From positions 1 to 23,055 of the IMG/VR virus record IMGVR_UViG_3300036398_004154: a DNA stretch of 23,055 bases; one strand, given 5' to 3'. Below, piece by piece: positions 4,194-23,055 of this stretch; position 1 is the first letter of the stretch; each line of letters opens with the position of its first letter. The DNA is from a virus. The notes below the pieces were generated by a model. That model was not told the origin of the DNA, ran no database searches, and was given only the letters and a program-made list of their open reading frames with translations. The position numbers and the translations under genes were made by a program.

Positions 4194-6278
4194 ATGAGCA
4201 ATAGATTTCACTCGAAATATCACAGAAAAAACCATCACACATACGGAAATGCAACAAATCCTGATGCATCACACGACCCTATAGCAAGTCCAGATCAACC
4301 ATTCTTGGGAGATTTTTCATTACAAGGTGCGTTGTGTGCAGTTGCACCAGCAAGTGCATATGCGGGATATTTTTATTCTTCAAAAACAGGTGTTCGTACT
4401 ATAGGTGGAGAAATTGGTTTAGCAGCATTTAGTTTTAATACCCCACTTTCTACTGCATTTGGTAAAAACATAATGCATGGCACAGTTGGTATAAACAAAA
4501 ATACTATATCGAGTGGTTATGTTTTGGATGTATTAGGAAATACTAATTTAGACGGAAATTTAAATGTCGTGGGTGATGTTGATATAGACGGTGGAGATTT
4601 AACAGCATCTACTGCTACTTTTAATTTGTTAAATACATCACCAACCACAACAATTAATTTTGGTGGAAATGCTACAAATATAGAAATTGGTAGTAATGCT
4701 GACACTAGTACGGTTAATATAAACGGAACAGAAGAAAGCACTTCTTGTACAACAGGGGCATTGGTAGTCGATGGTGGAGTTGGTATTGCAAAAAATCTTA
4801 ATATTTGTGGACGTTTAGATTTGAACAATGACACAGAAAGCACATCTTGTACAACAGGAGCATTGGTAGTTGATGGTGGAGTTGGTATTGCAAAAAATTT
4901 AAATGTATGTGGCAGTGTAACAATCGCAAAAGATTTAACTGTATTGGGATCATATACATATTTGGATACCAAAGTACAGGTTACATCCGCAATGACAATT
5001 GAAAATACCGGAACTGGTCCTGCATTAAAAGTTACTCAATCCGGAACAGAACCAATTGCTCATTTTATAGATGCAAATGGAGGGGATATAGTTTTTAATG
5101 ATGATGGTTTTGTTGGAATAGGAACCATGATACCATCTCAAAAATTACATGTGAGTGATGATACAACTACCGGAGATGTTAGAATAGCTCTTGGAAAGGA
5201 TATAAATAGATTAGAATTTATTAGAAATGGAGAAAATGATAATTGGATTAGATCATTTGGTGGTTCATTTATAATAGATCAACAAAATTGTAATCCAATA
5301 ATTTTTAGAACTAATGCCACAGAAAAGATGCGTATAACGTGTGATGGAAAGGTTGGAATTGGGGGGGAAACATCACCAGAAGGATTATTACACGTAAAAA
5401 ATGGTTCAGCGGGTACGGTAACAGCACAGGCTAATAGTGTTGGAGTATTTGAAAATGATGCTAATTGTTATATATCATTATTATCACCAAGTCAAAATTA
5501 TGCGGGTGTTGTAATGGGAGGACCAGATGATTCTTATGCTTCTTATTTAAGCTGGAATCATGATAATTTAGATTTAAAACTCGCAACAAGTCATGCTAAT
5601 GCGGATATACAATTTTTAGTATCAAACGAACAATTTGCAATGCGAATAGATCCTTCTGGAAATGTTGGTATTGGAATTACTACACCGTCCGAAAAATTAA
5701 CAGTAAATGGAAGAGTTTCGGCTACTGGATTTAGATCAAATCAAGGTGCGCCATCTAATGCTGATTCATCAACCAATGGTTATGCTTTTGGATCTGATGG
5801 TGATACTGGTTTATTTAGTCCAATAATAGGAGCAGGAGGAGCAGCAAATGGTGTAGTATCACTATTCTCCAACAATGTTGAAAAATTAAGAGCAGATGGT
5901 AATGCCGTTACAGTATTTGGTACATTATCTACAACTGGTTCTTTCGTGGTTAACGGAACAATAAAAAATGATCCAAATGCACCTATAACAAAAACAGAAA
6001 CTTATCAGATAACACAAGATGATCACGATAAAACAATTTTGGCAAATCATGCAACAACTACTATAAATATCCAATTACCAACTGGTTTAAAGGAAGGAAC
6101 ACAAGTTTCCGTAATAAGAGTAGGTGCTGGTGTAGTACAATTTGCACAAGGTACAGGATCACCCACTATATTATCAACACCAAATAACGATTTTAAAAAA
6201 TTGGCATTTACAAATTCAGCGGCAAGCGCATACTGGACTGGTACATCTTGGTATCTTGTAGGAGATTTATTATCATAA
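4194..6278 (+). CDS. Tail-fibre-like structural protein
   Basis: The 694-residue product has the repetitive beta composition of a phage fibre. The N-terminus is His/basic-rich (MSNRFHSKYHRKNHHTYG) and is followed by a small-residue-rich stretch, which may be an attachment domain. Residues about 115-260 are short beta repeats, including two near-identical copies of S-C-TTGALVVDGGVGIAKNLN at 4734-4811 and 4836-4913. From about residue 310, fibre motifs recur (VGIGTMIPSQKLHV, KVGIGGETSPEGLLHV, VGIGITTPSEKLTVNG), followed by a GSDGDTGLFSP segment. The last 100 residues form a separate beta domain (TYQITQDDHDKTIL...WYLVGD). No S74 intramolecular-chaperone dyad or collagen-like Gly-X-Y stretch is apparent. 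The start ATG lies 12 nt after the preceding stop with an A/T-rich leader. Fibre identity rests on motif style. The position in the virion (long fibre, side fibre or whisker) cannot be told. Confidence 0.85.
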   Translation: MSNRFHSKYHRKNHHTYGNATNPDASHDPIASPDQPFLGDFSLQGALCAVAPASAYAGYFYSSKTGVRTIGGEIGLAAFSFNTPLSTAFGKNIMHGTVGINKNTISSGYVLDVLGNTNLDGNLNVVGDVDIDGGDLTASTATFNLLNTSPTTTINFGGNATNIEIGSNADTSTVNINGTEESTSCTTGALVVDGGVGIAKNLNICGRLDLNNDTESTSCTTGALVVDGGVGIAKNLNVCGSVTIAKDLTVLGSYTYLDTKVQVTSAMTIENTGTGPALKVTQSGTEPIAHFIDANGGDIVFNDDGFVGIGTMIPSQKLHVSDDTTTGDVRIALGKDINRLEFIRNGENDNWIRSFGGSFIIDQQNCNPIIFRTNATEKMRITCDGKVGIGGETSPEGLLHVKNGSAGTVTAQANSVGVFENDANCYISLLSPSQNYAGVVMGGPDDSYASYLSWNHDNLDLKLATSHANADIQFLVSNEQFAMRIDPSGNVGIGITTPSEKLTVNGRVSATGFRSNQGAPSNADSSTNGYAFGSDGDTGLFSPIIGAGGAANGVVSLFSNNVEKLRADGNAVTVFGTLSTTGSFVVNGTIKNDPNAPITKTETYQITQDDHDKTILANHATTTINIQLPTGLKEGTQVSVIRVGAGVVQFAQGTGSPTILSTPNNDFKKLAFTNSAASAYWTGTSWYLVGDLLS
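4734..4913 (+). repeat. Two-copy coding repeat in the fibre gene (26 codons each)
   Basis: Copy 1 is at 4734-4811 and copy 2 at 4836-4913. They encode almost the same 26 residues around TTGALVVDGGVGIAKNLN and differ at the penultimate hydrophobic residue (I versus V). The 24 nt between them encode a short linker. Synonymous differences (for example gtcgat versus gttgat) suggest an older duplication under protein-level selection. Repeats of this kind typically form successive short beta layers in fibre shafts. Confidence 0.85.
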
Positions 6279-10629: not shown

Positions 10630-13600
10630 ATGGAACTTTATTCAAAAAAAATATCAGATATATATTGGTATCCTATTAATTTTAATTTAATGGGTAATAA
10701 AATCAATATGAAAAAAACATATTTTGTTTTTAATAATGGATTTAAATCAAATATATATGAATTTTTAAAAGATCCAAATGATATAAAAATAAATAAAAAA
10801 ACCGGAATTGTTTTGACTAATTTTTTATCAGGACAGGATATGTTTGAAGATAAAAATTCTCCGGAGATTTTAACAAATCTTTCTAAGATAGAAACTCCTT
10901 TAAAAACAACAGATTCTTTTGTTTTAACACTTTCAACATATCAAAATAAAAACATATTATATAAATCATACAATAATAGCTTTTCATATTTAGATACCAT
11001 GAAAATAATATTCGATGATGATACAATTTCAATCGAATCATATAACGGAAATGTTTTAACTTACGATAATTCTAATAATTTATTTTTTTCATCTAGAATA
11101 TCACCGCCTTCAAATACACAAAAATTCAATTATTTTTTGGGTGAAGATAACATAGTATTATTTTCATATGATAGTAACTATACAAAAGCAGTAACTATAA
11201 ATTCAAATAGAATATTGTCACTTACTAATGTATCATATAATTTAAATTCTTCTTTAGGAAACTCTAATATATTAAACTTTATATCATATAAAAGAAATAA
11301 TTTGTTATCCGATAGCATTAAAAATAGTTATTTTTGTATATATGAATCTAGTCCATTATTATCCCAAAAAGATTTAATACCAACCGAAGAAAGTTTAAAA
11401 GAAAATTATAAACAAAATTTTTTATCATTTTTTCCATATAAAAATCCAAAATTTGACGATATCACCGAAACGGTAGATTATGATTTACAAATACATGGAT
11501 TGAAAAATTATCAAACACCGGAATACAATTATTCTAGAGGTGTTGATTATATTGGTAATTATCCATCGATTAGAAGAGTATATAATAATATATTCTCTGG
11601 AACCAATCAAGAAAATGGATTGGAAAATATATATTTAGGGTTTACTACAAATACATATTTAAAAAAATTTGAAACTGATAGAAACACAGTTTTTTACTTT
11701 CCACCAACAACTCAAAGAATATCGGTACAGGATGCAGGTTTGATAGAAGATGGGGCATATTATGGAGAATTGCCTTATGTTTCAGATAGAATATATACTA
11801 GACAGATATCATACGAGGAACTAACGCCAAATGTGCCACAGCCTCCGTCTATGCCTAGATTAGATGGAACATGGTTGTGTACATGGTTATCGGGAAATAC
11901 AATGGGTCAAAAGAAGTGGATGGATAGATATTTCAATTCCGCTTATTATACAACCGATACGGCATTGGGAGCAACTGATTTGTTGTACAACGAAAAGTTA
12001 AATCCAGATGTTGATTTTGAAGTTTGGGATCAACCATCGTCTTTATTTTTCGAACCCGGTGGGCAGTATATATACTTCCGTTCTGGACAAGAAAATTCTA
12101 AAACATTTTTGACATATTTGAGTTCAGATTTTTACAATCCACTAGGATCCAAAATATTAGATATATCAAATTTTACCAGTTCACCATTAATAGACAATAC
12201 ACCATATACAAACGATGGTTTCATAGTTGGAAACGAAGATTCAAATTTTAAAGGAGAATATTTAAATTTAAATGGAAAAAACCATATAGTATTTCCTGCT
12301 AAAAATGTATTATTAGAAAAAAATCATTTAACACTTTCCTTATGGTTAAGAGTTGAAGATTGGGGTAATATAAACGGAGATCAAATAATAGGAAATTATT
12401 ACGATAGTGGATTTGGATTTATAAATGAATCTTCCTTAACATCACCTCTTTTTACTGTTGTTGATTCCACATCAGGAAATATTTTCAATTTAAATTTTAA
12501 ACTTTCTCATATAGATAATATATCTATTCCATATGAACCAAATAGTCAAAATAATATAATACAAAGATTGATAGATTTCGGATATTGGGTGGTAGATTCA
12601 TATAATAGAATATTAAGAAAATATAACATAGAAGGAAAAATTGAAAAAACTATTAATATAAAAAACGATATAGCTTATATAGATCAACTAGAAATAGATT
12701 CTCAAGAAAATTTATATTTATATTGTGTAAAAGATAAAAAAGTAGTAAAACTTAATTCCGAAGGAATTTTATTAACAACTAATATACTCACAAAAGAATA
12801 CAAAAGAATTGAAATAGATTTAGATGATAATCTAAAATACTCTTATGGTAATACTTCATGTATCGATAATCAAAATAGTTTATGGGAAGTTATAGGTGGA
12901 AATTTATATAAAGACCAACAGATATATGCAAATCTAGGACCAATGCAACAAATAAGCTGTGATGCTAAAAATAATTTATGGTTGGTTCATCAAAAAGATA
13001 AAATAACAAAATTTAATATAACCGAAGACAGGTTTGAATTTACAAAAAGCATAGGAAAAAATGCTTTGATAGATGATGATTGTTTTGAATATAATGGTCA
13101 GTTTAGATTTTTAAACTTTATCAAGACACCTAAAATAAGCAAAGTATGCGTGGAAACATCTGATAAAACCGAAGACTTGGCTATATTAATTGATGATTCT
13201 GATAAAATAGCATACTTAATAAATTCCGAAGGAGCATTAGTTTCTAGATTAAGTTTATATGGATTATTAACAGTAGATTTAGCAACAGTAAAAGAAAACC
13301 ATAATTTCAAAGCATTAGGTGATTTTAGCAGTTATCAATTTTTAAGAAAATTTGGATCATTAGATAAAAATTTAAGTTGGAAATTTAAAATAGCAACTGC
13401 AAATGGAAAAGATGGAAGATTATTGAAATTGACATATGATGTTAAAGATCTGCCACCGGGCTGGCATAATTTTGTTTTTAATTTCGATTCAACAAATGGT
13501 ACTGCAAAATATTACATAGATACTATTTTAGTAGCTGATGAAAAATTCGATAAAGCAAAATATCAAATACAATACGATTACAAATCATCTTTATTGGTAG

Positions 13601-14397
13601 GTGCATCAAATATAAAAAATACTACATTAAATGATTTAATTCAGGTTGAGGATGCATATAAACTAATTGGAGATATTGGTCAAATTTTAATGTACAATAA
13701 ATCTTTAACACAGGGAGAAATCTCACAAATATATTTTGCATCTGATTTATCTATAGATAAAGGTCCATTAAAGTGGAATATTCCAATAGGAGAAAGAAAC
13801 TATGTGGAAGAAATAAAACATTGGTTTCAAATGCAATTACCAACAAGTAAGAGCAAATATTATAATATTAATATACATAATTTACAGGCAGACGATAGTG
13901 TTAAAAAATTAATAGAAGATTCTATTAGAAGTAATATCAAGAAAATTACTCCTGCGCATACCGATTTATATAAAATAAATTGGTTGGATTCAAATAGAGA
14001 AAAAACAGAATATTCCGAATATTCAAATCTTTGTATATTAACACCTACTCCAACACCTACTCCAACACCTACTCCAACAAGTACTCCAACTTCAACTCCT
14101 ACAAGTACTCCTACAATAACACCAACAAGTACCCCTACCAATACACCAACATCAACACCTACAAGCACTCCTACCAATACTCCAACAATAACACCAACAT
14201 CAACACCTACAAGCACTCCTACCAATACTCCAACAATAACACCAACATCAACACCTACAAGTACTCCTACCAATACTCCAACAATAACACCAACTTCAAC
14301 ACCTACAAGTACTCCTACTAATACACCTACGTATACACCACCTCCCGATCCGGGTCCTTATTCTTTGTTCTTGAATATTGATACAAATTTAACATAA
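10630..14397 (+). CDS. Giant virion protein: LamG-like lectin fold interrupted by a propeller, ending in a Thr-Pro linker
   Basis: The product has 1,255 residues. Residues 1-510 are an unrecognised beta-rich region with a Trp-rich patch near 415-450 ([20 protein letters not shown]). A concanavalin/LamG-like domain begins at about 520-600 ([26 protein letters not shown]). Its expected second half appears only at about 900-1040 ([49 protein letters not shown]). Between them are NHL-like propeller repeats ([50 protein letters not shown]). Residues about 1050-1137 are a separate mixed domain ([11 protein letters not shown]...[13 protein letters not shown]). Residues 1138-1237 are a Thr-Pro/Ser linker, and only 18 residues follow. 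Such folds bind glycans or build fibres, so a host-contact role is inferred. The next gene is in the same frame 9 nt after the TAA. Confidence 0.85.
14041..14340 (+). repeat. Thr-Pro/Ser-rich linker-coding region with four 48-bp tandem units
   Basis: This region encodes about 100 residues of (Thr-Pro-Thr-X)n. Within it, four tandem 48-bp units lie at 14143-14190, 14191-14238, 14239-14286 and 14287-14334, each coding [15 protein letters not shown] plus one variable residue. The first three differ by only one or two bases and the fourth is more diverged. Copy number is likely to vary by slippage or recombination. The antisense strand is also open and gives a Val-Gly repeat, which is a shadow. 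Confidence 0.9.
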
Positions 14398-14406
14398 TTA
14401 TTAACA

Positions 14407-16401
14407 ATGGCTACACCAAACAATCAATTTAGATTAAGACTTTACCCTAGCACATATTATAATTTTATTGTTGATTGGGGAGATGGTACTAGTGATGTTT
14501 TTAATGGAACCACACCAGTTTATCAAAATCCAGCTGGTCATCAAACACCCACCATTTCTCAACAAGCTGCTGTTTCAGCAACTTGGCCCGGTATTACCCA
14601 TACTTATGATCTAGCAGGAAAATACACCATAAAAATATCTGAAATTGTTTCCGGTGGATTTCCGGGTCTTCAATATGCTGGAGTAGATGATATTGGTGCT
14701 TGGGACTTTTCGCAAGAATTTAATAACGATTCTAAAAAAATAGAAAAAATATCTCAATGGGGATCGGTTACATGGAACCCATCAAAGGCAATGGTAAATT
14801 CTTTTGAAGGATGCATTAATTTAAAAGATGTTGTTACAGATGGTGGAACGAGTACTTTAAGTGCTTTAACTGATCTCACAAAAGCTTTTCAAGCTTGTAT
14901 TTCTTTGTCTTCTTTTGATTTAATTGATACATCAAATGTAAATGATTTTGATCAAGCATGGGAAAGCTGTACCGCTTTAATCTCGTTTCCTTTATTAGAC
15001 ACATCTAAAGGTACGTATTTCGGAAGAACGTGGTCAGACTGTAATAAGTTAAAAACATTTCCAGCTATAAACACAATTAGTGCCACAGATCTAGATAGAG
15101 CGTGGTTTAATTGTCAGTCGTTAACGGCTTTTCCTTTTATAAATACATCTAATGTAAAGATATTTGGAGGAATGAACACTCCAGATGGTGATGGAGCTTG
15201 GGGTCAATGCTATTCTCTTTCTTCATTTCCATTGATAGATACTTCAAACGCTACGTCTTTGCAAGGGGCTTGGAGAAATTGTAGGAATTTAATAACGTTT
15301 CCTGCTTTGAGTACTCCAAAAGTTACAAGTTTTATTACTGCTTGGCAAGGTTGTATATCTTTAACCTCTTTCCCGTTCATAGATACTTCTCAAGCTACGA
15401 ATGTGTATGCTGCTTGGAAAGATTGTAAAAAGTTAAAAACGTTTCCTGATATTGATCTTTCAAATTGTTTGTCTGTCGGTACTGACAGAGGGTTTTCAGC
15501 AGGAGCATGGGCTGGCTGCGCATCTCTAACCTCATTTCCTGAAATTGATATGCCTGTATGCGAACAGTTTCACAATGCTTGGAATGGTTGCGTTTCTCTA
15601 AGTTCTTTCCCATTAATTAATACTTCTAGAGGAATTAATTTTGCGAATGCTTGGTTAAATTGTACTTCTTTAACTGTATTTCCGTTAATTGATACTTCTA
15701 AAGGAAATAACTTTGAAAGTACTTGGAGCGGTTGCACTTCTTTAAAAACATTCCCGGTAATTAATATGCTTAGTGCAACAAATATTAATAATACGTGGCA
15801 CGGTTGTACATCTCTCACCGCTTTCCCGGCAGCCCTCTCATCTTTTCCTAATCATTCAGGAGCGTTATGGCAAACATGGGTTAATTGTTATGCACTAAAA
15901 TCTTTCCCTGTAATTAGTATACCGAAAGTGACGTCATTCAGACAAACGTGGGCTAATTGCACGAGTTTAGTTAATTTTCCGTTAATTGATACTTCAAATA
16001 TTACGGATATGGGTGCACCCTGGCTTGCAGGATGGGGCGCGTGGGCAGGTTGTTTTTCCTTAACTGCTTTTCCGCTTTTAGATACTTCAAATTGTACTAG
16101 TTTTTGGGCTACTTGGCAAAGTTGTAAAAATCTATCTGCATCAGATTTTCCGACTCTTGATATGTCTAAAATGACTAATGGTATAAATTGTTTTGCCGGA
16201 GTCAAATTAACAACGACTTCTTATAGTTCGCTTCTAACTTCTATATGTGCAACTAACATTAATACAGGAGTAACGTTCCATGGTGGAAATTCAACATTTA
16301 ATACTGCTGGATCTGCTGCTAAGGTGTTTTTAACTAGACCAATAGGTTCTGGCGGTAGAGGTTGGACGATTACAGATGGAGGTTATCAAGTAGGAACATA
16401 A
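14407..16401 (+). CDS. BspA-like (DUF285-type) repeat protein, putative adhesin
   Basis: The product has 664 residues. Residues 15-80 include VDWGDGTS and HTYDLAGKYTIKISE, a PKD-like beta module. From about residue 130 to 605 there are some 18 repeats of about 22-30 residues with consensus aW..C.sL.sFP.idTSn.t.f, a variant of the BspA/DUF285 repeat, with one Cys per repeat. The C-terminus (YSSLLTSICA...GWTITDGGYQVGT) resembles the usual closing segment of such proteins. BspA-like repeats are known from bacterial surface adhesins. Here a receptor-binding virion role is inferred. The first ATG is 9 nt after the upstream TAA and in frame with it, and there is no Shine-Dalgarno. The gene is more G+C-rich than its neighbours: 32 of 60 bases in 15481-15540 against 8 of 60 in 12601-12660. 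This may reflect repeat composition or later acquisition. Confidence 0.85.
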   Translation: MATPNNQFRLRLYPSTYYNFIVDWGDGTSDVFNGTTPVYQNPAGHQTPTISQQAAVSATWPGITHTYDLAGKYTIKISEIVSGGFPGLQYAGVDDIGAWDFSQEFNNDSKKIEKISQWGSVTWNPSKAMVNSFEGCINLKDVVTDGGTSTLSALTDLTKAFQACISLSSFDLIDTSNVNDFDQAWESCTALISFPLLDTSKGTYFGRTWSDCNKLKTFPAINTISATDLDRAWFNCQSLTAFPFINTSNVKIFGGMNTPDGDGAWGQCYSLSSFPLIDTSNATSLQGAWRNCRNLITFPALSTPKVTSFITAWQGCISLTSFPFIDTSQATNVYAAWKDCKKLKTFPDIDLSNCLSVGTDRGFSAGAWAGCASLTSFPEIDMPVCEQFHNAWNGCVSLSSFPLINTSRGINFANAWLNCTSLTVFPLIDTSKGNNFESTWSGCTSLKTFPVINMLSATNINNTWHGCTSLTAFPAALSSFPNHSGALWQTWVNCYALKSFPVISIPKVTSFRQTWANCTSLVNFPLIDTSNITDMGAPWLAGWGAWAGCFSLTAFPLLDTSNCTSFWATWQSCKNLSASDFPTLDMSKMTNGINCFAGVKLTTTSYSSLLTSICATNINTGVTFHGGNSTFNTAGSAAKVFLTRPIGSGGRGWTITDGGYQVGT

Positions 16402-16404
16402 GTT

Positions 16405-16626
16405 ATGAACGAACTAAACTATCCAGAAACAACAAAACACATAATAATTCATGATAACGAAATATTTAGTTATCATATTGTTGAACCACAAAATTGTTTA
16501 AGTACAGGTCAGCCTTTTATGGTGATATTTGATTCTGAAGAGGAAGCAAAAGAAAATTTTCCACAGGCTTTTCCAGAAAAACAAATTGAACAATTTCCAA
16601 CAATATCAAATGATAACCCAATTTAA
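16405..16626 (+). CDS. Small protein of unknown function at the end of the structural block
   Basis: I do not recognise this 73-residue acidic protein. It has a probable beta/alpha core (HIIIHDNEIFSYHIVE, FMVIFDSEEEAKENFP) and a polar tail. It starts 3 nt after the BspA-like gene, as expected for the same transcript. Its stop codon overlaps the stop of the convergent glycosyltransferase gene by 3 bases in the TTAA at 16623-16626. Small genes next to phage fibre genes are sometimes fibre-assembly factors, but nothing in the sequence shows that here. Confidence 0.65.
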   Translation: MNELNYPETTKHIIIHDNEIFSYHIVEPQNCLSTGQPFMVIFDSEEEAKENFPQAFPEKQIEQFPTISNDNPI

Positions 16627-18104
16627 AAAATAGGATAATAATAGTTGTTAAAATGATTATATATTTTAGAATATATTTTTATATCTCTATTGTATTGATG
16701 AACTATTGAAAATTTTTTATTATTTTCATTGAAAAATTTAGAATCATTATTTATTGTTATTTTATTTTTAAAATTTTCTTTATTATGAAAATATACATGA
16801 AGATTGCAACAAAAACCATCGTTAAAATTTTTAACATCAATTTCAAATTTATCCAAATATATTAATTTTTGTAAAATTGGTTGATCGCAACCATATTTTC
16901 CATTAATATTTATTTTTTTACTTTCTTCTATAATAGAATCACACAAATTAATAAAAGCATCTGATGTTCCACCTATAGCACCACCACATAATACCGAATT
17001 TTCTTTTATTTCGTCATATATATTTTGTGCATAAATTCCTTTAAATATATTAGTATTCCATGTTTCATTTTTAATTAAAATTTCTTCGGAACTTATAATC
17101 AAATTATTTTTTATATGAATAAATGGATCAGACTGAAATATCACATCCAGACAATCCGTGTGCAAAACTTTTTTATAATGTTTGTTATCATTTAAAAAAT
17201 TTCTATATGCATGATAACGATCTATAAAAATATTATCATGTTTTATTTCATGATAATAAACCTTTGCTCCAAATGCTTCTATTTGATTTATAAGATATTT
17301 ATCTGGATCTTTATCGGCTACACATATAACTAAATCATAACTATATCCAGAATAAATCATGGCACTTTTAATAAAAGACATCATGTTTTTTGGATCGGTT
17401 TGATTTTTTAAATAACTGATTAAAAGGTTTTCGTTTTTATGTTTTTTTGGACACAATATTTTAGGAACAATCGTTTGTTTATAAATGTTAGATGATATTG
17501 TTGTAAGATTTTTAACATATGCATTTTTATAAAAATCATATATATTAGTTTTTTGATTTTCCGGTATTACATATAATGTTTTAAGATTATTGGCATAATT
17601 TATTCCATCAAAATTTCTTGAATGATTTTGATATCCCATATCATATTTTACACTATGAGACTCATTTAATGTTACAACTTTAAAATTTTGTTTTCTTAGT
17701 TTATCATATAGATCATTATCTTCTGCTCCCCATCCCCAAAATGAATTTGAATAACCGCCCACTTTTAAAAACACCTCCATTTTCATTAAACAGCTACCAT
17801 AATCACCTAGATTATGGTATACTTCATTTGCATTTGGGAATTTCCATTCTCCTTCTATTGGTGTTATATCAACATGATGAATATATAACCATTCATATTC
17901 TTTATCTTTTATAAAGTCTATCAATGAATTACAGGGCATACCTGCATTCCAAGAACAATCTTGTTCCAATTCACATATTAAAATATCATATGTTAAATTT
18001 TGTTTATTGAAATATTCCGGAGTTTTTTCTAAAAATTTTTCCAAGTCTCTTTCTCTGTTCCTATAAGGAACAACAATTAACATGTCCTTTTTTAGTTTTT
18101 CCAT
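16623..18104 (-). CDS. Two-domain glycosyltransferase: GT7-like N-terminal domain plus second GT-A-like domain
   Basis: The product has 493 residues. The N-terminal 190 or so match the beta-1,4-galactosyltransferase family (GT7) in motif order: PYRNRERDL (13-21), HHVDITP (76-82, where the family usually has D-V-D), then YGSCLMK...GGYSN and FWGWGAEDNDLYDKL (122-136), the family's WGWG-E-D-D acceptor/metal loop. The C-terminal part (about 215-493) looks like a second transferase: RYHAYRNFL (296-304), LHTDCLDVIFQSDPF (314-328) with a DxD-type motif, CGGAIGGTSDAF, GCDQPILQKL and a late HQYNR (469-473). Sugar donors and acceptors cannot be read from sequence. There is no signal peptide or membrane anchor, so it acts in the host cytoplasm. 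It is the last gene of a three-gene minus-strand operon, starting 1 nt after the GT60-like stop. Met8 is a possible alternative start. Confidence 0.85.
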   Translation of the reverse strand: MEKLKKDMLIVVPYRNRERDLEKFLEKTPEYFNKQNLTYDILICELEQDCSWNAGMPCNSLIDFIKDKEYEWLYIHHVDITPIEGEWKFPNANEVYHNLGDYGSCLMKMEVFLKVGGYSNSFWGWGAEDNDLYDKLRKQNFKVVTLNESHSVKYDMGYQNHSRNFDGINYANNLKTLYVIPENQKTNIYDFYKNAYVKNLTTISSNIYKQTIVPKILCPKKHKNENLLISYLKNQTDPKNMMSFIKSAMIYSGYSYDLVICVADKDPDKYLINQIEAFGAKVYYHEIKHDNIFIDRYHAYRNFLNDNKHYKKVLHTDCLDVIFQSDPFIHIKNNLIISSEEILIKNETWNTNIFKGIYAQNIYDEIKENSVLCGGAIGGTSDAFINLCDSIIEESKKININGKYGCDQPILQKLIYLDKFEIDVKNFNDGFCCNLHVYFHNKENFKNKITINNDSKFFNENNKKFSIVHQYNRDIKIYSKIYNHFNNYYYPIF

Positions 18105-18105
18105 T

Positions 18106-19326
18106 TTAAATTTCTTTTTTTGTTAAATTTAACCAATTTAAATCTTTGCTATATGGCCAAATTATAAGAATTTTTGGTTCTTGTTCTGGACTATTATATT
18201 CAAATTCAAAATCACATTCTGTTTTTGTACCATTTAAAATATCAGAACATTCTTTTTGATCTATATCTTTTCTATATATTTCCTGATCATTTTTATCTTT
18301 AAAAATGAATGCCATAAATCTCAATTCCTTGCTGTGATCTATTTCATTCCAGTTCCATTTTGCGGTATACTTGTATTTTTTAATAATATAAGACCATTTA
18401 TATTTATCATTTAAATCTACCGGAGGTTCTTTTCCTTCCTTTGTATCTAAATGTAATATGTTTCTTTTAAAGTCTATACCAGAATAATTTTGAAAATCTT
18501 CCAACGTTCTTACATTTCCCAATCCATATATTCCTAAATTGTAATTTTTATTTCTATTCAATAAACAATTTAATCTATCGGTTGCTTTTATAGAATATTT
18601 TCCCCATTCCGAACAATCATCCCAATGTTTTTTATTATTTTTTCTAGTATAATAATGCCATATTATTATTTTATGAGGATGGTATAAATCATATCCATGT
18701 GTATAAAACCTAACTGCCAATGCTGTTTCTTCTCCACTAAAATAAAATTCTGGATCATATGTGACATCCTTTATATATGAACCTTTTCCAAATATAAATC
18801 CAGCCGCAACATGAATTGCTTTGTATGGAGTTGTTCTATTTTGCCAATTCGACGGAGTTCTTGGTCTTTGTTCCGTTTGACCATTTTTGAATGAATGTGT
18901 GTGAATAACATGCAAAGATTGACTCCATTGATTTTCTGGTTTATCTGGATAATATTCCGGTGGATATGATGTCAAAATAGCCTTATCATTTTTCAATTCT
19001 TTCCATAGATTTATAATTTCCTCGTCCCAGTTTTGTATAAATCTAGTATGAGAGTCTATTTGTAATGTATATTCTTCATTGGAATATAACAAGTTTACTT
19101 TGTTTCTAGCCCAACATACACCTTTGCTTTCTTTGTATGGTATATCTAATATTTTAAATTTTTCATTATTTATGAAATCATTTAAATTTTCATTTTCGTC
19201 GTGTTGCCATGCTATTCCAAATCTTAAATTTTCAGGATGTTTTGATTTTGATATACAATCATTAATTGTTTTAATTAATTCGGGATCTCTATATGATGCA
19301 ATCTGTACGAAAATTAAATTGTCCAT
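18106..19326 (-). CDS. GT60-type (polypeptide GlcNAc-transferase-like) glycosyltransferase
   Basis: The product has 406 residues. Motifs run in the order seen in the family of UDP-GlcNAc:polypeptide N-acetylglucosaminyltransferases (GT60, Skp1-type): IASYRDPEL (9-17), RFGIAWQHDE (35-44), WARNKVNLLY (72-81), LQIDSHTRF (88-96, the metal-binding DxH), AGFIFG (175-180), EFYFSGEETALAVRFYTHGYDLYHP (193-217), WHYY (223-226) and GNVRTLEDFQNYSGIDF (270-286). Residues about 305-406 are an extra beta-rich domain of unknown role. Known GT60 enzymes add GlcNAc to hydroxyproline or Thr of polypeptides. The acceptor here is unknown, although Thr-Pro-rich virion linkers are encoded nearby. There is no signal peptide. 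It starts 1 nt after the ferritin-like gene and ends 1 nt before the GT7-like gene, so it is co-transcribed. Confidence 0.85.
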   Translation of the reverse strand: MDNLIFVQIASYRDPELIKTINDCISKSKHPENLRFGIAWQHDENENLNDFINNEKFKILDIPYKESKGVCWARNKVNLLYSNEEYTLQIDSHTRFIQNWDEEIINLWKELKNDKAILTSYPPEYYPDKPENQWSQSLHVIHTHSFKNGQTEQRPRTPSNWQNRTTPYKAIHVAAGFIFGKGSYIKDVTYDPEFYFSGEETALAVRFYTHGYDLYHPHKIIIWHYYTRKNNKKHWDDCSEWGKYSIKATDRLNCLLNRNKNYNLGIYGLGNVRTLEDFQNYSGIDFKRNILHLDTKEGKEPPVDLNDKYKWSYIIKKYKYTAKWNWNEIDHSKELRFMAFIFKDKNDQEIYRKDIDQKECSDILNGTKTECDFEFEYNSPEQEPKILIIWPYSKDLNWLNLTKKEI

Positions 19327-19327
19327 A

Positions 19328-19801
19328 TTAAATTTTAACTAATGAAAGTAAATAATTTGCTTTATTTAATGCGGATAAAATTTCTTCTTTGGTATTATTT
19401 AATCCAGATATAACCGAACTGGTGTATGAATCAAATTCTGGCGAGTTTAATGATGAACAAATCGATCCACACACATCATAATATGTTTTTAATATTGAAC
19501 CTTCACAATCTACATACGATTGTATATCGTCTAAGTTGATTTCATTTGATATATGAGGAAATTGTTTTGATTGTTGTTTACATGTACCAATTATTTCTTC
19601 TTGTAAATCATCAAAAGAATCGCTCAATGAACTGTACAAGTTTCCTAGAATGTTATGAGCATCGTAATTTTCCGTATACCAATGACACATTTTAATAACA
19701 GATAAAGATTTATTTAAAAATAAACCAAATGATCTAGTTGAATCCAAAGAATTTTCTATTCCATCTTGAGATGAAATTATAGTTATGTTTACATTATTCA
19801 T
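19328..19801 (-). CDS. Ferritin/Dps-like helical-bundle protein (DUF5856-like)
   Basis: The 157-residue product is predicted to be mostly helical, with a conserved-looking segment at residues 30-76: CHWYTENYDAH, then D64/D65 and E68/E69. This HW...H...D..E spacing recalls the metal-binding helices of Dps-like ferritins and the small phage family DUF5856. Four helices are plausible (about 20-45, 48-75, 92-118, 122-153). Several cysteines (39, 74, 99, 111, 115) are unusual for Dps. It is the promoter-proximal gene of the minus-strand operon that continues into two glycosyltransferases, so a link with them may be only transcriptional. If functional as a ferritin, it might protect against oxidative damage or bind iron. 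That is inferred, and the key residues deserve structural checking. Confidence 0.65.
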   Translation of the reverse strand: MNNVNITIISSQDGIENSLDSTRSFGLFLNKSLSVIKMCHWYTENYDAHNILGNLYSSLSDSFDDLQEEIIGTCKQQSKQFPHISNEINLDDIQSYVDCEGSILKTYYDVCGSICSSLNSPEFDSYTSSVISGLNNTKEEILSALNKANYLLSLVKI

Positions 19802-20295: not shown

Positions 20296-20585
20296 TATTT
20301 TTTGAATTTTTAACATACATAATACTAAGTTTGGGTGTTAGTTTTATGTGGAGTTTTTCTGAAATATTTTCTCCGGTTAGAAATTTGGTTGCAAGAATTC
20401 CATACATAAGAAAACCTTTGATATGTCCGGAATGTAGTAGTTTTTGGATGGGGGTATTAACTAGTTTATTTTATAATCCACTTTTTAACACATTGGGGTA
20501 TTATTCATATCCTTTTTGTGGTTTGTCCGTACATTTATTTGCTTGTTTTTTATATAAAATTTATTTTAAAATTATTAACAATTAG
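20292..20585 (+). CDS. Small integral membrane protein with CPEC motif
   Basis: The product has 97 residues. A hydrophobic helix at residues 2-21, a short basic loop (VRNLVARIPYIRKP), a CPECSSFWMGVL segment (45-56) and a second or third hydrophobic stretch (about 50-63 and 72-90) indicate two or three membrane spans. A loop with two cysteines followed by FW(M/I)G resembles small membrane proteins with a C-P-x-C-xxx-W motif (DUF1360-like). That match is by eye only. The start overlaps the upstream stop as ATGA. The 3' end overlaps the 3' end of the convergent large gene by 11 nt. A membrane role such as holin or superinfection exclusion is conceivable but not shown. Confidence 0.65.
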   Translation: MIFFEFLTYIILSLGVSFMWSFSEIFSPVRNLVARIPYIRKPLICPECSSFWMGVLTSLFYNPLFNTLGYYSYPFCGLSVHLFACFLYKIYFKIINN

Positions 20586-23055
20586 AATTATCATACAAAC
20601 ATGATCCATCATCACAGTTATAATTAACATTTGGATTATAATTAGATGAACAATAGTCGGTACATCCTCTTAATTCCGGTAAACAAGATCCATCATTTAT
20701 ATTGGCATTATAATCATAATTTGGAGAACAAGGATTAGTACATCCGTTTATAGGAACAAAAAAGAAAAATCTAACACTTCCGGTTATGCCATATGGTCCC
20801 CCGTGGTTCGCATTTTTATATGTATATGATATTCGCAGACGAACATAATTTCCTTCGTCTATTACTTGCACCGATGATGTACCAGTTGCAGCACCCAAAG
20901 TACATTCCGGTCTGGTTGATCCATCGTCTGAAAAATCTCCTATGGTTCCTGTATTGTCAAAATTTACACTAACATCAGCATATGGTGTTAGTCCCTGAAC
21001 ACAAGACTTTAAAAATTGCATGGATGTTACATTTCCCGAATCTGTAAGATTGCTACAAGATGCTGTACCATCTCCAGATGGACAAGGTTGACCTGCACTT
21101 GGGCATTCGTCATACCAATGGTAATCGTTTAATGACACGATTTCTTCATAAATACATGGTTCTGTTGGAGTATCGGTTGGAGTACTTGTTGGAGTGTCAG
21201 TTGGAGTGGTAGTCGGTGTACTTGTTGGAGTTGAAGTTGGTGTTGAAGTAGGAGTACTTGTTGGAGTGTCAGTTGGAGTGGTAGTCGGTGTACTTGTTGG
21301 AGTTGAAGTTGGTGTTGAAGTAGGAGTACTTGTTGGAGTGTCAGTTGGAGTGGTAGTCGGTGTACTTGTTGGAGTAGTAGTCGGTGTACTGGTAGGAGTA
21401 CTGGTTGGTGTTGAAGTTGGTGTACTTGTAGGAGTACTGGTTGGTGTTATTGGAGTACTGGTTGGTGTTGTTGTTGGAGTTTTAAACAACCCATAATCGT
21501 TTCCGAAAATGTCGGTTCTCCAATTTGTCATAATACCTCTATTGACTAACAATCCGGTTTTTCTTAATTCATAGGTTTGTGCCATCAATTCTTTTCGGAA
21601 TGTTAAAGGATAATTCTTTTCATCGTTCCATATGGCAGGTAAAGTGTTATTCCAAAATTCTATCGGATCATCCTGTCTTGTTACACCATGACTATTTTTT
21701 CCTATTATCTCATAAGAAGATTGATAAGGAGTAAACTTTTGATTTTCTAATGTGTTTATGTGCATTCCCATTCTGCTACCAGAATTAAAAGAATCCACCA
21801 TCCATCTATTATCCACATATTTTACTACAGCAGGAGAAATTTGATCATTTTTTGATAATCCTCTATTTCTATTTGCATATTTATTTGGATCGAAAAAGGT
21901 TCTTTCGGCACTGGTTGAATCATAGACCGTAATTTGATCTTTATCAATTTCAATTGAATATCCCTTTCCTCTGTAATAAGGAACACCTAGATTCAAAGGG
22001 GTTAAATATCCACCGAAATGTTTTTCTGATACCATCAATTTAGGAATAGAAACAGTAGCAATTGTTGGGAAGTGTGTATTTAATAAATTACAATAAGGTT
22101 CAGATGGAGTTAAAATAGATCCGGTATTGAACACTACAAATGTATTTTCACATCTATCTTTGTTAAATAATTCTTGAGTATATGTGAAAGCATTTCTGGC
22201 AAAATAGTTGTATCGTGATATTCTGAAATCAGAATAACTCTCTAACAACATATCACTTACTTCATCGCTACTTTCTCCATAGAAATCAAAGTCACCATTT
22301 TTTAATATTTCACTTAAATTTGATGTGTGTCTATAGAAATTTATCTTATTCCATTGGTAGTCAGATAATGTAGTTGATAAGGTTATTGGTTGAATCCAAT
22401 CAAATGATGTATTCTTTCTTCTAAAATATTGAATAAAACTTCCATTTTCAATAATAATATTTGATACATCTGGTTGTCTTATAGGAACATAATCATTAAA
22501 AAATCTCAATTGTCCAGAAAAATGATTGCTTTCCTTTTCAAATCTTTTTTCTAATGTGGGTAATGTGTCAGATACACCCCAAAATGGTTTACCGCCATAT
22601 ATTTCACCTATAAATTTAGGATCAAATTTCTTTAAATCATAATCCCATCCGTTTAATTTTGAATTGAATGTAAATGATAAACCAGCTTGTGAAAAACTGG
22701 AATTGGCATCTTCGCTTATATAGTTAACTTCTGCCGCATGGACATAAACCAAAAAATCACCAGGTCTCATGACCATATCTGACTTTTCATTTAATGCTGT
22801 CCATATTCCAGATGAATTTTTAACAGCTTTTTTCCAACTCGGAACAACCGATTCACAACCATTAATGTTGGATGCCAATATATTTGCAAATGTTAATACA
22901 TCTCCATTTCCTTCTTTTAGATAACCTTCCAAATTATAATATTTCGTTGAATCAGATGCTAAGGTTTCCAATAAATTGTTATTATAAGATCTCAACCCAA
23001 TATCAACCGTATATATTTCTACATTCTTTTGAGTTTTTAATGTCTTAGCATAATC
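20575..23055 (-). CDS. Large modular protein: von Willebrand A domain end, structural region, Thr-Pro linker, beta-sandwich, GCT/DGSC repeats (5'-truncated)
   Basis: The frame stays open through the right edge. The codon at 22995 is TTG, and upstream codons continue in frame (DYAKTLKTQKNVEIYTVDIG), so the N-terminus is missing. About 827 residues are visible. Positions 23055 to about 22863 read like the last third of a vWA domain: V-EIYTVDIG, LLETLAS, YYNLEG, and then TFANILASNI. A 400-residue unrecognised region follows (PKFIGEIYGGKPFWG, QSSYEIIGKNSHGV, PLTFRKELMAQTYELR). A Thr-Pro linker is at 21480-21163, a beta-sandwich at about 21100-20750, and two Cys repeats at 20745-20578 (GCTNPCSPNY..., GCTDYCSSNY...). 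The GCT...DGSC repeat is widespread in extracellular proteins of aquatic Bacteroidota. I infer a secreted or virion-surface adhesin-like protein. It is convergent with the small membrane-protein gene. Confidence 0.8.
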   Translation of the reverse strand, partial: DYAKTLKTQKNVEIYTVDIGLRSYNNNLLETLASDSTKYYNLEGYLKEGNGDVLTFANILASNINGCESVVPSWKKAVKNSSGIWTALNEKSDMVMRPGDFLVYVHAAEVNYISEDANSSFSQAGLSFTFNSKLNGWDYDLKKFDPKFIGEIYGGKPFWGVSDTLPTLEKRFEKESNHFSGQLRFFNDYVPIRQPDVSNIIIENGSFIQYFRRKNTSFDWIQPITLSTTLSDYQWNKINFYRHTSNLSEILKNGDFDFYGESSDEVSDMLLESYSDFRISRYNYFARNAFTYTQELFNKDRCENTFVVFNTGSILTPSEPYCNLLNTHFPTIATVSIPKLMVSEKHFGGYLTPLNLGVPYYRGKGYSIEIDKDQITVYDSTSAERTFFDPNKYANRNRGLSKNDQISPAVVKYVDNRWMVDSFNSGSRMGMHINTLENQKFTPYQSSYEIIGKNSHGVTRQDDPIEFWNNTLPAIWNDEKNYPLTFRKELMAQTYELRKTGLLVNRGIMTNWRTDIFGNDYGLFKTPTTTPTSTPITPTSTPTSTPTSTPTSTPTSTPTTTPTSTPTTTPTDTPTSTPTSTPTSTPTSTPTTTPTDTPTSTPTSTPTSTPTSTPTTTPTDTPTSTPTDTPTEPCIYEEIVSLNDYHWYDECPSAGQPCPSGDGTASCSNLTDSGNVTSMQFLKSCVQGLTPYADVSVNFDNTGTIGDFSDDGSTRPECTLGAATGTSSVQVIDEGNYVRLRISYTYKNANHGGPYGITGSVRFFFFVPINGCTNPCSPNYDYNANINDGSCLPELRGCTDYCSSNYNPNVNYNCDDGSCLYDNSNC
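21163..21480 (-). repeat. Thr-Pro/Ser-rich linker-coding region with 72-bp tandem units
   Basis: Read on the minus strand, 106 codons encode (Thr-Pro-Thr-X)n with X = Ser, Thr or Asp. A 72-bp period (24 codons) is exact for two copies, 21179-21250 and 21251-21322, and continues for about 53 bp of a third (21323-21375). Base-perfect copies imply recent duplication. The linker joins the structural half of the protein to its C-terminal beta-sandwich. Confidence 0.9.

Follow-up and report, generated by a model that had tools for sequence, protein, structure and literature searches.

A three-gene operon on the minus strand (16623-19801) of the IMG/VR virus record IMGVR_UViG_3300036398_004154 encodes a GT60-type glycosyltransferase (GT) and a two-domain GT7 enzyme, and lies between genes for virion-type proteins that carry long Thr-Pro linkers. 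The window, that is, the whole stretch of 23,055 bp that was analysed, is AT-rich and derives from a tailed phage. We consider it probable (roughly 0.7) that the operon represents a phage-encoded system for mucin-type O-glycosylation of the phage's own virion linkers. Two lines of evidence carry this reading: the predicted fold of the first transferase, which is that of polypeptide-directed enzymes, and the recurrent association of GT60 genes with Thr-Pro-rich genes across viral genomes.

Organization of the cassette and its flanking linkers

The elements of the cassette and the two linkers are as follows (aa, amino acids):

16623..18104, minus strand: two-domain glycosyltransferase, 493 aa, with an N-terminal GT7 domain and a C-terminal GT-like domain
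18106..19326, minus strand: predicted GT60-type polypeptide HexNAc-transferase (HexNAc, N-acetylhexosamine), 406 aa (PF11397, phrog_24687, structural model)
19328..19801, minus strand: Dps-like/DUF5856 protein, 157 aa, first gene of the transcription unit (PF19174, 36.8 bits, cut-off 34.6; phrog_858, E = 1.2e-10)
14041..14340, plus strand: Thr-Pro linker, 100 aa with 28 TP, near the C-terminus of protein P7, candidate acceptor ([ST]P density; tandem repeats)
21166..21480, minus strand: Thr-Pro linker, 105 aa with 27 TP, inside protein TP2, candidate acceptor ([ST]P density)

The original prediction, made from the DNA alone, had described an operon with 1-nt gaps placed between linker-bearing blocks. 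The coordinates of the three open reading frames (ORFs), which are separated only by the bases at 18105 and 19327, agree with that description, and Thr-Pro linkers were found on both sides. The third gene, which had been left undescribed, encodes the Dps-like/DUF5856 protein; it stays upstream of GT60 in the relatives L003, L007/L014 and L008. Linkers in proteins were scored as [ST]P density per 40 aa, a simple regular expression having undercounted the runs. By this measure the P7 and TP2 linkers reach 13 and 11, respectively, and the maxima in 1000 shuffles of each protein were 5 and 6.

The putative initiating enzyme belongs to the GT60 family

The 406-aa protein matches PF11397 (GlcNAc, GT60) with 241 bits (cut-off 21; E = 2.9e-71) and phrog_24687 over its full length (E = 1.6e-96). 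A GT-A catalytic domain (approximately residues 1-300) is followed by a short, beta-rich C-terminal domain (approximately 314-405), and no ricin lectin profile matched the protein. Residues D91, H93 and H224 are invariant in an alignment of 36 homologues, and we take the D91-x-H93 motif and H224 to be the counterparts of the metal ligands of the polypeptide N-acetylgalactosaminyltransferases (ppGalNAc-T). An AlphaFold model of the enzyme, based on 36 phage and bacterial relatives, has a mean predicted local distance difference test (pLDDT) score of 94. When this model was compared with the PDB by Foldseek, all 50 of the 50 best matches were ppGalNAc-T (best E = 2.1e-11), and several of the matched structures contain mucin peptides. 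Phmmer and hmmsearch gave no match to PDB sequences, and NCBIfam gave none either. Thus, profile, DxH motif with a distal His, and a ppGalNAc-T-like fold lacking the ricin domain identify the enzyme as a member of GT60 (PF11397), and its model folds like the transferases that initiate mucin-type glycosylation.

GT60 has been described as the family of mucin-type initiators in protists, related to GT27 but devoid of the ricin domain (PMC8724618), and its Trypanosoma cruzi member TcOGNT-2 transfers alpha-linked N-acetylglucosamine (GlcNAc) onto Thr, thereby starting mucin-type O-glycosylation (PMC3769586). The idea that the cassette is built from families known mainly in eukaryotes could not be maintained, since phages and bacteria commonly encode GT60: at least 579 relatives were detected in IMG/VR and at least 77 bacterial loci in GTDB. 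In several of the bacterial loci, from metagenome genomes, Thr-Pro-rich proteins adjoin GT60 (L117, L126, L100, L159 and L104), and in loci L123, L134 and L154, from Paraburkholderia and Trinickia, such a protein lies in a similar place 4-5 kb from it.

A two-domain GT7 enzyme accompanies GT60

Residues 6-148 of the 493-aa enzyme match both GT7 profiles above cut-off (PF02709, 48.4 bits, E = 7.2e-13; PF13733, 41.3 bits, E = 1.4e-10), and phmmer relates the protein to B4GalT1/7 (E = 3.6e-10). A second GT-like domain spans approximately residues 225-420, of which 271-399 match the glycosyltransferase family phrog_1579 (E = 3.5e-10), bearing out the earlier description of a GT7-like enzyme fused to another transferase domain. 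For this second domain no match was found in Pfam or, with phmmer and hmmsearch, among PDB sequences; hhalign showed no significant similarity of it to a small, neighbouring GT-like family, and tblastn of the fusion enzyme against INPHARED gave no match. Foldseek related the enzyme to LH3, Escherichia coli K4 chondroitin polymerase (K4CP) and B4GalT, using a model with a mean pLDDT of only 63.5; for the second domain the LH3-like match gives a weak structural indication. The GT7 motif WGWGxEDDD reads WGWGAEDND and is kept in 5 relatives save one A/G position, and the metal motif is HVD in place of DVD. The GT7 family includes donors other than galactose. Two-domain forms are found beside GT60 in the relatives of the window, and stand-alone GT7 enzymes of 271-279 aa adjoin GT60 in seven other loci; a more general GT7 partner therefore takes a lineage-specific form in the fusion.

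Thr-Pro genes and partner glycosyltransferases adjoin GT60

Both in the window and in other viral loci, glycosyltransferase genes adjoin candidate acceptor virion genes. Among 77 non-redundant viral GT60 loci, 34 were informative, as they encode a protein whose [ST]P density reaches 8 or more per 40 aa. In 17 of these 34 a Thr-Pro gene is the direct neighbour of GT60; with any other large gene of the locus in the place of GT60, 6.1 such cases would be expected. Of the adjacent genes, 16 are found within 100 bp of GT60, and 15 of these share its strand. The adjacent Thr-Pro proteins number 21, near-duplicates included; they sort into 12 groups that lack detectable homology outside the repeats and are encoded upstream or downstream of GT60, so that the pairing has probably arisen repeatedly.

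At least one partner glycosyltransferase was found within three genes of GT60 in 47 of the 77 loci, and at least two in 24. These neighbours comprise HtrL_YibB (41 loci), GT7 (17), GT25 (16), GT10 fucosyltransferases (6) and other GT-like families, although some clusters were labelled GT-like by context or by eye and two of seven had no Pfam match. GT25 passes the cut-off in 5 records and in 4 of them lies no more than about 2 kb from GT60. The commonest phage neighbour, HtrL_YibB (PF09612; for instance in L061), is suggested by its frequency to be a glycosyltransferase of the same pathway. A constant initiator combined with variable extenders looks like an O-glycan pathway.

Co-occurrence of GT60 and linkers across viral records

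A survey of related genomes for co-occurrence of transferases and linkers, proposed with the original prediction, gave a positive outcome. It used 42 virus records of at least 18 kb, picked by their gp23 capsid gene and thus independently of the question, which were scored for PF11397 and for the DNA pattern of TPTxTPT; a reversed-pattern control gave at most 1 match per strand and record. Three or more linker matches were present in 7/7 records with GT60 and in 7/35 without it (Fisher p = 1.3e-4). Similarly, among records of at least 100 kb, two or more matches were found in 17 of 18 selected by GT60 and in none of 6 lacking it (p = 5e-5). With the selection reversed, GT60 was present in 14 of 37 records picked by Thr-Pro DNA, and in 10 of the 16 that reach 100 kb. 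The association between cassette and linker is real and more general than had been claimed.

A shared host or habitat of large phages might produce both features without any functional link. Set B, the other marker set, was borderline by itself (p = 0.055), and strict clustering by GT60 similarity removes the power of the comparison, as a host effect would allow. The association nevertheless persists in the T4-like set alone (linker DNA in 2/2 records with GT60 versus 0/20 without, p = 0.004) and among GT2-bearing records (6/6 with GT60 versus 6/17 without, p = 0.014); it extends to plant-pathogen and sewage isolates (XacN1 and RAS14, see below), and adjacency of the genes requires no host explanation. 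We thus regard mere ecological coincidence as quite unlikely.

Isolated phages

Tblastn against INPHARED detected GT60 only in XacN1, CM1 and RAS14. XacN1 contains 51 matches to the linker pattern and RAS14 contains 22 (CM1 was outside the scan), whereas none of 17 other well-known large isolates, a set that covers RaK2-type relatives of XacN1 as well as marine T4-like phages, has two or more, and one has a single match. Dense Thr-Pro regions of XacN1 occur in ORFs 325 and 384 as well as in ORFs 350, 369, 370 and 372, which surround the tail-sheath genes; its GT60 is ORF334, and ORF330 looks HtrL_YibB-like by eye. At least two glycoproteins have been reported in XacN1 virions and the phage's own transferases suggested as their makers, and the main text of that paper draws no link from the enzyme to Thr-Pro linkers (PMC5852040). 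Among the papers searched, none on phage GT60 or Thr-Pro glycosylation was found.

The XacN1 locus bears on another possibility, namely that the enzymes attach sugars to phage DNA as a hypermodification, which happens in T4 and other phages. DNA-modifying transferases are the best-known phage glycosyltransferases, according to work cited in PMC12619734, and in XacN1 GT60 is found near a DNA polymerase and a carbamoyltransferase. However, family and fold are those of polypeptide transferases, no gene for base modification was recognised among those of the window, and adjacency to Thr-Pro genes would be left unexplained, which makes DNA modification very improbable.

Observations that weigh against virion O-glycosylation

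Several findings speak against glycosylation of virion linkers by the cassette. About 60% of the records selected by Thr-Pro DNA and 7/35 of the GT60-negative marker records (many of them fragments) have linkers and no GT60 in the record, so linkers do not need GT60. Conversely, the linker pattern is missing in 20 of 50 GT60 records, fragments included. When GT60 sequences are grouped by single linkage at 60% identity, 8 viral groups remain and significance is lost, phylogenetic non-independence being only partly controlled. In XacN1, GT60 adjoins the carbamoyltransferase and no linker gene. Genomes keeping the cassette and lacking Thr/Ser-rich linkers had been named beforehand as evidence to the contrary, and they occur in part: the 122-kb record G006 has GT60 and no linker pattern, and L003 and L014 keep the cassette with a P7 devoid of linker, but the L014 contig retains the other linker and L003 is only a 19-kb fragment. 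Cassette and linker are thus not strictly coupled. Finally, GT2 presence also correlates with linkers over the 42 records (p = 0.008), a correlation that is gone in the T4-like set (p = 1).

Records with linkers and no GT60, together with the overall GT2 correlation, would suit a cassette that remodels the host surface polysaccharide (lipopolysaccharide, LPS, or capsule), for instance for superinfection exclusion, with the linkers serving as flexible, unglycosylated spacers common in the same phages. GT25 is, by its Pfam name, an LPS-biosynthesis family, and HtrL_YibB is bacterial. Nevertheless, GT60 and GT27-like folds are polypeptide-directed (PMC8724618), linkers are found in 0/5 of the large (at least 100 kb) T4-like records with GT2 and without GT60 (two or more matches), and adjacency of GT60 and linker genes far exceeds expectation across the 12 unrelated neighbour groups. 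In addition, the cassette is embedded in blocks of virion genes, and nothing resembling a flippase gene was seen in the window. Polysaccharide remodeling is accordingly judged unlikely.

A putative pathway

From gene association and predicted fold we infer acceptors, sugars and benefit of a system that would be cytoplasmic and act on the phage's own virion proteins. GT60 would use a UDP-sugar to attach a first HexNAc, which is most likely GlcNAc, to Thr/Ser of the Thr-Pro linkers of adhesin or tail proteins. The two-domain GT7 enzyme would then extend this sugar, probably with galactose and subsequently with another sugar, although the order GlcNAc, galactose, third sugar is only plausible. 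Linkers so modified may turn into stiff stalks that are coated with glycans, resist proteases and lie between receptor-binding modules. Of the virion O-glycosylation originally envisaged, a polypeptide-directed first transferase with its extension enzyme, paired to Thr-Pro linkers, is upheld by the survey and the ppGalNAc-T-like fold; its supposedly eukaryotic character is not.

The linkers contain about 27% Pro, and a variant can be conceived in which, as for Skp1, a prolyl hydroxylase of the phage or its host would produce hydroxyproline in the linkers, and this residue instead of Thr/Ser would be the acceptor. In Dictyostelium, Gnt1 acts on hydroxyproline in a cytoplasmic protein, and a bifunctional enzyme extends the glycan (PMC8724618). 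However, PF13640 2OG-Fe(II) oxygenases were present in only 3 of 23 GT60 records and none was found in the window. Hydroxyproline was hence rejected as a general route and is a highly unlikely acceptor here, Thr/Ser being the likelier one.

Beyond the window, we lean towards a widespread and hitherto unrecognised form of mucin-type O-glycosylation in phages, in which a conserved GT60 and exchangeable GT7, GT25, HtrL_YibB and GT10 enzymes would decorate receptor-binding Thr-Pro stalks, many large environmental phages each having their own glycan coat.

Virion-type genes of the window

Virion-type genes make up most of the window (tail-fibre-like P2, glycine-rich P3 and P4, the large P1, P7 and TP2), and no tRNA genes were found in its 23,055 bp. 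The features that complete the list are:

4194..6278, plus strand: tail-fibre-like protein P2 (phrog_9942 and phrog_18345, tail fiber; virion context)
10630..14397, plus strand: P7, 1255 aa, virion-type, linker-bearing (ORF call; weak pentraxin-like match)
14407..16401, plus strand: P8, BspA-like repeat protein by eye (phrog_34853, E = 5.7e-41; same frame as P7)
20575..23055, minus strand, as the cassette: TP2, large virion-type protein with its N-terminus outside the window (ORF call)

Between P7 and P8, at 14395-14409, lie a single in-frame TAA and then three sense codons, followed by an ATG that keeps the frame; this arrangement may be due to gene breakage, to read-through or to a difference in the assembly, and P8 is a probable distal module of the linker protein. 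In the relatives L003 (3636-7010) and L014 (5623-9003), P7 stops just before the position where the linker of the window starts and P8 is absent, so linker and distal module look like an add-on cassette. Homologues of TP2 are present in the relatives L005 and L007. At its C-terminal end TP2 has Cys-rich repeats that follow the pattern GCTxPCSPNYDYNANINDGSC, and by eye the visible N-terminus looks like the end of a vWA domain.

Significance and comparison with known systems

If correct, this interpretation would mean that phages have dense mucin-type O-glycosylation and that its genes belong to the virus instead of the host, and would account for the long Thr-Pro repeats and unexplained glycosyltransferase clusters of many environmental phages. 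Studies of evolution and enzymology would also gain prokaryotic relatives of the mucin initiators of protists and animals, and soluble enzymes for O-glycosylation would become available for expression in bacteria. The idea is testable now, since both XacN1 and RAS14 are in culture.

Phage-encoded glycosyltransferases are reportedly implicated in the glycosylation of mycobacteriophage virions. As proposed here, glycans are carried there by phage structural proteins, namely at the C-terminal ends of the subunits of capsid and tail tube (Freeman 2023, cited by PMC12619734). The Xanthomonas jumbo phage XacN1 shares with the window the GT60 family and many Thr-Pro-rich proteins, and glycoproteins were detected in its virions (PMC5852040); in contrast to the window, its partner genes are GT9 and the carbamoyltransferase, without a GT7 fusion. 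Two GT-A-type domains per chain are also found in K4CP and LH3/PLOD, the top Foldseek neighbours of the fusion, but the former is a polysaccharide polymerase and the latter a collagen enzyme, and no sequence homology of either to the second domain was found.

The Skp1 pathway of Dictyostelium likewise combines a cytoplasmic initiating GlcNAc-transferase (Gnt1) with a two-domain extension enzyme, whereas its acceptor is Skp1 hydroxyproline and no prolyl hydroxylase is evident in the window. The domains of the Skp1 extension enzyme belong to other families than those of the fusion. The animal ppGalNAc-T (GT27) offer the closest solved fold and act on dense Thr/Ser-rich acceptor regions; unlike them, the GT60 of the window has no PDB sequence match and no ricin lectin domain, and its first sugar is probably GlcNAc. 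The enzyme family is shared with T. cruzi TcOGNT-2 and the protist polypeptide alpha-GlcNAc-transferases, which attach the first sugar to Thr within mucin-like stretches rich in Thr, with extension by further enzymes. Whereas theirs is a eukaryotic Golgi pathway, here a phage gene would operate in the bacterial cytoplasm, with virion proteins as the likely acceptors.

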